DNA of 64,000 bases. Origin: Halorientalis sp. IM1011. Lineage in GTDB: Archaea > Halobacteriota > Halobacteria > Halobacteriales > Haloarculaceae. The notes under the pieces were generated by a model. The model worked only from the letters and a program-made list of their open reading frames with translations. It had not been told where the DNA came from and searched no databases. Positions 21,392 through 23,337 of the stretch are shown one piece after another. The number at the start of each line of letters is the position of its first letter. The first letter of the stretch is position 1. A program made the position numbers and the translations under genes. The stretch is from contig NZ_CP019067.1 of NCBI RefSeq assembly GCF_001989615.1, positions 558,001-622,000 of the forward strand, in the 5' to 3' direction.

Positions 21392-22291
21392 ATGCACGGG
21401 AACGACCGTCCCGCGACGCTCTGTGTGACGAACGCCAAGGGCGGGACGGGAAAGACGACGGTAGCCATCAACGTCGCGGGCGCGCTCAACGAGCGGGGGC
21501 GGGACGTGCTGTTCGTCGACCTCGACCCGCAGGGCAACGCCACGGAGGGGCTCGGGCTGGTCGAGGCCTACGACGCGACACCGCCCACGCTGTTCGACGT
21601 CCTGACGGACCCGGACCAGCGGTCGGCGGTTCACGACCTGATCCGCCCCCACGACGAGATGGACGTGTTGCCGAGCAACATCGACATGTTGCAGGCCGAA
21701 CACGAGCTAACGATGGCCAGCGTGATGGCGAAACTCGACGCCGATCCGGCGCTCGACGTCGATCCCGCGGTGCTGGAACCGCTGACGATCAACGTCGGGC
21801 CGGAGACGATCACCGGGGAGACGGCGCTGGACGGGCTGGAGAAGGTGCTCGACCGGCTCTCGGGGTACGACTACGTCGTCGTCGACTCGCCGCCCTTCTA
21901 CGGGCAGTTGACCGACACCGCGATCTACGCGACGGGCAACGTCCTGATCCCGGCGCTGACCGAGGCGACCTCCGAACGGGCCATCGAACTCCTGTTCGAC
22001 CAGATCGCGGCGCTGGAAGATCGGACGGGAAAGAGCGTCCGGGAGGTCGGCGTCGTCGCCAACCGGGTCGAATCGACCAACGAGGACGCCGAGATGCTCG
22101 ACTGGCTGGAGGCCGTGTTCGAGGACGTGCCGGTCTGGTCCGTCCGCAAGCGGGTCGCGCTCCAGCGGGCCTTCTCAAGCGGGCAGTCGCTGTTCGCCTA
22201 CGACTCGACGGTGGACATGGCCGACCGCTTCCTTGAGATCGCCGCCGACCTCGACAGACAGTTCGGCTTCACAGAGGAGATACCACAATGA
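21392..22291 (+). CDS. ParA/MinD-family ATPase
   Basis: A 299-residue deviant Walker ATPase. The Walker A motif with signature lysine is TNAKGGTGKTTVAINVAGAL, the A' motif is VLFVDLDPQGNATEGLG, and the Walker B motif is YVVVDSPPFYGQL. These ATPases dimerise on ATP and bind DNA or membrane to position cargo. The stop overlaps the start of a CheW-domain gene (ATGA), so the likely cargo is a chemotaxis component. No MinD-type C-terminal amphipathic helix is obvious, so DNA rather than membrane may be the track. The ATG was chosen by the promoter and by the start of the Walker domain. Confidence 0.93.
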   Translation: MHGNDRPATLCVTNAKGGTGKTTVAINVAGALNERGRDVLFVDLDPQGNATEGLGLVEAYDATPPTLFDVLTDPDQRSAVHDLIRPHDEMDVLPSNIDMLQAEHELTMASVMAKLDADPALDVDPAVLEPLTINVGPETITGETALDGLEKVLDRLSGYDYVVVDSPPFYGQLTDTAIYATGNVLIPALTEATSERAIELLFDQIAALEDRTGKSVREVGVVANRVESTNEDAEMLDWLEAVFEDVPVWSVRKRVALQRAFSSGQSLFAYDSTVDMADRFLEIAADLDRQFGFTEEIPQ

Positions 22292-23337
22292 CCGACGAGG
22301 ATACCAACGACCGAATGGAACGGGCGAACCGCATTCGAGAGATGCGCGAAGGACGACGCCGCACACCTGCGAAAGACGACGAGGAGGATGGGGCCGACGC
22401 GACCGCCGACGGTGGCGAGGCCGAAACCGAGGAAGACGACGCCGTGGCCGACGAAACGCAGGCGGCGGACGACTCGACGCCGACGATCGACGAGACTGTC
22501 GAAACGGCCCCAGCCGACGACGAGTCCGACACAGACCGGAACCCCGGAGCGGACGACGGCGACGAATTCGATGGCACTGCGGACGAGGAAAGCGGCGTCG
22601 AGACGAGCGGATTCGAGTTCGAAGAACCCACCGGGGACGACGGCGAGGACCGCGACAACGGCGAGACGGCTGAAGCGGACACCGCGGCAAACGAGGGGGT
22701 CGAGCGAGCGACGACGGAGTCGGGCGTCGCGGAGTCGGTGTCCTCGTCGGACGCCGCCGAGGCCGTCGACGCACTGTCGGGGAGCGGCGGTTTCGCCATC
22801 CCGGACCAGGCGACGACGGTCACCGAGGACGACGACCAGTCGATGCTGAACGCGGAAGGGACCGTCGCCGCGGCGCGAGCAGCGGCCGCGGGCAGGCGCG
22901 CGACCCACGCCGGCGACCGCACGCGCGTCCTGGAGTTCGAACTCGGCGAGGAGCGGTTCTGCCTCGACATCGAGTACATCGAGGAGATCGTCGAACTGGA
23001 GAACATGACCCGGGTCCCCAACTCGCCGTCCTACGTCGAGGGCGTGGTCGACCTGCGCGGGCAGGTGACCGCCATCATCAACCCGAAGGACGCACTCGCC
23101 GTCGACGACGAGGGGCGGGGCGACCTCATCGTCGTCTTCGACTCGGAGGAGATGGACGAGCAGGGCCACCTCGGCTGGGTCGTCGACGAAGTACGGCAGG
23201 TCACGCCCGTCACTGACGAGGAGGTCAACGAGTCACCCGACGAGGACGACGAGCACATCAACGGCATCATCAACCGCGAGGACGAGGACGACTTCATCGT
23301 CTGGACGACGCCCGACCTCGCACTGAACTCCTCTTAA
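22288..23337 (+). CDS. CheW-domain protein with long acidic disordered N-terminus
   Basis: A 349-residue protein. Residues 1-32 are unusually basic for this proteome (DRMERANRIREMREGRRR). About 33-180 is a disordered run rich in Asp, Glu, Ala and Thr. A complete CheW domain begins around 210 (RVLEFELGEERFCLDIEYIE, VEGVVDLRGQVTAIINPKDA, LGWVVDEVRQVTPV). CheW couples chemoreceptors to the kinase CheA in arrays. The start overlaps the parA stop by four bases. The layout recalls bacterial ParP, where a CheW-like domain is tethered to a ParA-type ATPase. The basic N-terminal patch could be the ATPase contact, which is an inference. Confidence 0.88.
   Translation: MTDEDTNDRMERANRIREMREGRRRTPAKDDEEDGADATADGGEAETEEDDAVADETQAADDSTPTIDETVETAPADDESDTDRNPGADDGDEFDGTADEESGVETSGFEFEEPTGDDGEDRDNGETAEADTAANEGVERATTESGVAESVSSSDAAEAVDALSGSGGFAIPDQATTVTEDDDQSMLNAEGTVAAARAAAAGRRATHAGDRTRVLEFELGEERFCLDIEYIEEIVELENMTRVPNSPSYVEGVVDLRGQVTAIINPKDALAVDDEGRGDLIVVFDSEEMDEQGHLGWVVDEVRQVTPVTDEEVNESPDEDDEHINGIINREDEDDFIVWTTPDLALNSS

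Follow-up and report, generated by a model that had tools for sequence, protein, structure and literature searches.

Within the 64,000-nucleotide stretch of Halorientalis sp. IM1011 DNA that was analysed (the window), a gene encoding a ParA-type ATPase is immediately followed by a gene whose product, here called the adaptor, ends in a CheW domain. The stop codon of the first gene and the start codon of the second overlap in the four nucleotides ATGA, an arrangement that would couple the translation of the two products. A first-pass annotation had recognised this overlap and had divided the second protein into a basic patch, an acidic linker and a CheW domain; both descriptions agree with the open reading frames, the selective conservation of the tail and the Pfam assignment, as follows.

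21392-22291, + strand: parA, ParA-type ATPase gene of a CheW-linked haloarchaeal clade, 299 aa (Pfam AAA_31/CbiA, orthologs, tree)
21437-21460, + strand: deviant Walker A motif KGGTGKTT with signature lysine, ParA residues 16-23 (sequence, alignment with other ParAs)
22288-22291, + strand: ATGA, 4-nt overlap of the parA stop and cheW start codons (sequence, ortholog loci)
22288-23337, + strand: tail-linker-CheW adaptor gene, 349 aa (Pfam CheW, 42 orthologs aligned)
22312-22362, + strand: basic N-terminal tail, adaptor residues 9-25, RMERANRIREMREGRRR (invariant residues, profile match)
22363-22917, + strand: acidic linker, poorly conserved and probably disordered, about residues 26-210 (conservation, charge, AF2 coil)
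22927-23289, + strand: CheW domain, adaptor residues 214-334 (Pfam, alignment to T. maritima CheW)

The ATPase matches the Pfam families AAA_31 (1.8e-32) and CbiA (7e-23), and its sequence and alignment reveal, besides the deviant Walker A motif, intact switch I and Walker B regions (DLDPQGNA and VVDSPPF, respectively). It is 56-67% identical to haloarchaeal plasmid-type ParAs. Since membrane targeting is not evident in the sequence of its C-terminus and the protein descends from plasmid ParAs, the nucleoid would be its likelier platform.

Among 195 genomes of the order, full-length relatives of this ParA, 57-84% identical, are present in the window's own genome, in 20 of the 26 other genomes of its family (f1) and, outside that family, in two genomes (G069 and G008); 393 genomes of the phylum yielded no more relatives this close beyond the order. 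A fuller sample of the family contains the gene in 83 of 146 genomes, distributed over 12 of 22 genera. The CheW adaptor comes next after ParA in all 42 loci, which cover all 12 genera, and the 4-nt overlap is kept in nearly all of these pairs, the exceptions being L012, L013 and L061. A gene for an FAD oxidoreductase lies downstream of the pair in many genera, which suggests vertical inheritance. In the window's own genome the pair stands apart from other che genes, as had been noticed from the sequence: no MCP gene was found in the window (C1:0.558-0.622 Mb), the only other CheW-domain genes, those for CheA and CheW1, are located at C1:2.047-2.050 Mb, and cheA, cheB, cheR and cheW1 sit 1.47 Mb from the pair.

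Co-occurrence with chemotaxis genes had been named in the first-pass annotation as the check on a positioning role, and it was found. ParA and CheA occur together in 81 genomes of the family, ParA alone in 2, CheA alone in 17 and neither in 46 (Fisher test, 3e-21, a value that treats non-independent genomes as units; at genus level p = 0.029), and a second pair, described below, lies inside a che cluster. The two genomes with ParA alone are incomplete (58% and 71% complete); in high-quality genomes alone the four counts are 63, 0, 11 and 22. Both genes are absent from G162, which belongs to the window's own genus, and from G243 of genus g5, in each case with congeners that retain both. G162 also carries, at C1:387113-391585, two CheW-domain frames, one of them within a 1219-aa frame, and the canonical CheA dimerisation domain is absent there; these frames perhaps represent a different chemosensory system.

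Conservation along the adaptor is uneven. Over the 42 loci the mean majority fraction is 0.77 in residues 8-25 and 0.72 in the CheW domain but falls to 0.29-0.34 in the linker, and the tail residues R12, A13, R15, R20 and G22 are invariant throughout. The median net charge of the 13-residue tail is +4. The linker varies in sequence and length from locus to locus, is strongly acidic (about -27 per 100 residues) and appears as coil in a low-confidence AF2 model of the adaptor made with six sequences. The CheW domain (Pfam match 4e-21) keeps the receptor-groove hydrophobics, L215, I228, I231 and I234, in an alignment to T. maritima CheW, whose receptor-binding groove positions are L14, V27, I30 and V33 (PMC5706961). 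Compared with the proteins of its own genome, the domain matches CheW1 at 1e-40 and CheA-P5 at 5e-4, and it has diverged to 45% identity with CheW1.

Short basic N-termini are a common activating element in the partners of ParA/MinD ATPases, reported for ParB-type proteins, ParG, MinE and PomX and suggested by sequence for TlpT and McdB (PMC7993993). The N-terminal region of the adaptor likewise includes a short basic-rich stretch, and this tail is the probable ParA-activating peptide. An interaction of the basic patch with ParA, proposed at first from the sequence, gains support from the similar tails of partition partners encoded on haloarchaeal plasmids. ParAs encoded on haloarchaeal plasmids are, among the matches listed, 36-60% identical to the window ParA, and most of those examined are followed, with the same 4-nt overlap, by a gene for a partner of 120-200 aa whose basic tail (RADRLRxRR) is joined by a variable linker to a conserved C-terminal domain (YMYLPE...EKNRHFYPLVV). 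A profile of 12 columns, built solely from the tails of these plasmid partners, gives the window tail 14.1 bits, a value reached by none of 920 shuffles and none of 113 control N-termini; this result and the invariance of the tail residues in the 42 loci rule out a basic patch arisen by chance. The adaptor and the plasmid partners have the tail in common and differ in the C-terminal domain, which is CheW in the adaptor. Because the same tail is joined to a different C-terminal domain in the plasmid partners, the adaptor looks like a partition adaptor whose cargo domain has been swapped. An intermediate is found at locus L015, where the ParA is 67% identical to that of the window and the partner combines an extended tail of the CheW type with a C-terminal domain of the plasmid type. 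The identification of the plasmid domain as a ribbon-helix-helix fold was unsupported by a PDB profile search, single-sequence AF2 and Foldseek.

Further ParA-type genes were recorded in the course of these comparisons. A scan of viral contigs with the plasmid-partner alignment gave no matches; the same scan with ParA yielded a single useful locus, on a predicted viral contig of IMG/VR (L155:2899-4267), encoding a 49% identical ParA and an overlapping partner that has a linker and, at its N-terminus, a basic stretch. The window's own genome carries a different ParA-type gene (324 aa) on the plasmid-like contig C3 (L151:875-2397), which overlaps the gene of an acidic 183-aa partner by 4 nt. On plasmid PHS1 of Halobacterium salinarum R1 (L089:2504-3268), a ParA-family gene that lacks an adjoining annotated partner lies directly 3' of gvpC-gvpN-gvpO.

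A second pair is present in another haloarchaeal family (f7), in seven genomes belonging to five genera. Its ParA is 50% identical to that of the window, the gene overlaps a tail-linker-CheW gene by 4 nt, and the pair is flanked by cheB-cheA and by cheW, a gene for a HemAT-like (protoglobin) receptor and cheF. In the trees, the f7 ParA groups among plasmid ParAs and the f7 CheW domain with another CheW paralog. Forcing the window and f7 pairs into one clade, with the groups defined by gene architecture before the trees, was disfavoured by AU tests for ParA (p=0.014) and for CheW (p=0.005, from a tree with short alignments and long branches that calls for caution). A separate origin of the two pairs is thus favoured by the phylogenies, and on balance it seems that haloarchaea turned plasmid ParA operons into array-positioning systems at least twice independently, with two CheW paralogs swapped in.

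The pair is best read as a ParA-based cargo-positioning system in which the cargo would be chemoreceptor arrays, a reading to which we assign a probability of roughly three in four. Together, the frequency of basic activating N-termini among the partners of such ATPases and the retained CheW groove suggest the arrays as cargo, with ParA as the positioning engine and the tail setting off hydrolysis. The CheW domain of the adaptor would dock into the arrays by binding to receptor tips like any other CheW, and the flexible acidic linker would bring the basic tail within reach of the ParA dimer in its ATP-bound form, whose ATP hydrolysis the tail would stimulate. Repeated binding and release could next shift, space or segregate the arrays on the platform of ParA, for which the nucleoid is the most likely candidate; arrays would thereby be inherited by daughter cells and/or held at defined sites. 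The adaptor would have originated from a haloarchaeal plasmid-partition operon by exchange of the C-terminal domain of the partner, presumed to bind the centromere, for a CheW duplicate. Several findings count against this explanation: ParA is absent from 17 of the 98 CheA-bearing genomes of the family, from which it follows that it is dispensable for haloarchaeal chemotaxis, arrays can be placed without it in Haloferax volcanii, as described below, and the pair is unlinked to che genes in the window's family.

The cargo might also be something other than the main membrane arrays, such as clusters of soluble receptors like those of the Rhodobacter PpfA-TlpT system. Five of the ten receptor genes of the window's own genome lack a predicted TM segment, the f7 pair adjoins the protoglobin receptor gene, and the ParA is of plasmid type with no membrane-targeting C-terminus evident in its sequence; nothing links the adaptor to particular receptors, however, and we consider this choice of cargo a minority possibility, which is in any case a variant of array positioning and not in conflict with it. 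It has been reported for Hbt. salinarum that CheW2 binds receptors and not CheA, and it was proposed to tune receptor-CheA coupling (PMC3579733). With this precedent, and with the divergence of its CheW domain from CheW1, the adaptor could be mainly a signalling modulator that competes with CheW1 for receptors without CheA, its availability being governed by ParA. This is unlikely, as it leaves the partition-type ParA, the conserved partition-type tail and the long linker unexplained; that a CheW domain was apparently joined to one kind of ATPase twice, independently, also speaks for a spatial role. A now neutral locus, either a relic or a persisting plasmid-partition cassette that gained its CheW domain by chance, is very improbable even though plasmid ParAs are the closest to that of the window, since both reading frames are conserved in 12 genera with invariant tail residues and the pair is nearly absent from genomes that lack CheA.

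If array positioning by the pair is correct, it would be the first ParA-driven array-segregation system of this sort described in archaea, separate from ParC-ParP; the openly accessible literature on haloarchaea, ParA and CheW, as far as its text was available, describes no such pair. The placement and inheritance of large protein assemblies in archaea are largely open questions, for which the cases in the available part of the literature are the Haloferax MinD proteins, and the pair offers a defined two-gene system with a short, mutable tail. It would also be a case of modular evolution, in which the ParA-docking peptide was kept while the cargo domain, presumably DNA-binding at first, was exchanged, apparently twice, for a chemotaxis adaptor.

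Several known systems invite comparison. Haloarchaeal plasmid parA operons (e.g. that of Halobacterium salinarum PHS4, L080) share the 4-nt overlap, the basic tail and the variable linker, with a ParA up to 60% identical among the best plasmid matches, and differ in their plasmid location and in the C-terminal domain that the partner carries where the adaptor has CheW. In Haloferax volcanii, CheW foci depend on MinD2/MinD4 (PMC11588486), so that ATPases of the ParA/MinD family influence CheW foci in a haloarchaeon here as well. Arrays can therefore be placed without a ParA-CheW pair, and in genomes with the pair it would act as an added or alternative system; MinD2 and MinD4 are, however, of MinD type, and the consulted passages mention no basic-tailed CheW partner. 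In Rhodobacter sphaeroides, the ParA-type ATPase PpfA places a chemoreceptor cluster and its partner TlpT has a basic N-terminal extension (PMC7993993); TlpT is a receptor whereas the adaptor is a CheW protein, a comparison made from published descriptions.

The resemblance to bacterial ParC-ParP, a system that governs the polar placement of arrays and on which the first-pass annotation had built, holds for architecture and fails for most of the membership features tested. In ParP, a long linker connects the N-terminal region that interacts with ParC to a CheW-like AIF domain, which is nearer to CheA-P5 than to CheW (PMC5706961). Similarly to the systems of Vibrio and Pseudomonas, the haloarchaeal pairs combine a ParA-like ATPase with a partner whose N-terminal ATPase-interaction region is separated by a long linker from a C-terminal CheW/SH3-like domain; location within a che cluster is shared by the f7 pair only, the window pair being 1.47 Mb from its own. 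In contrast, the window ParA is 25% identical to Pseudomonas ParC (the one ParC compared), the tail profile gives the Pseudomonas ParP N-terminus -8.6 and the window tail +14.1, and the adaptor has at its N-terminus just a short basic tail in place of a ParP-type interaction/dimerisation domain. Moreover, the adaptor domain is CheW1-like and not AIF, with no match to the Pseudomonas AIF, and the repeated DDEFExLLDQL of Pseudomonas CheA, which we assign to its LID, is absent from the CheA proteins of the window's genome and of f7. Homology to ParC-ParP was rejected on these comparisons of ATPase, N-terminus, AIF and LID; with most features of membership lacking, the pair is an analogue built from archaeal partition parts.
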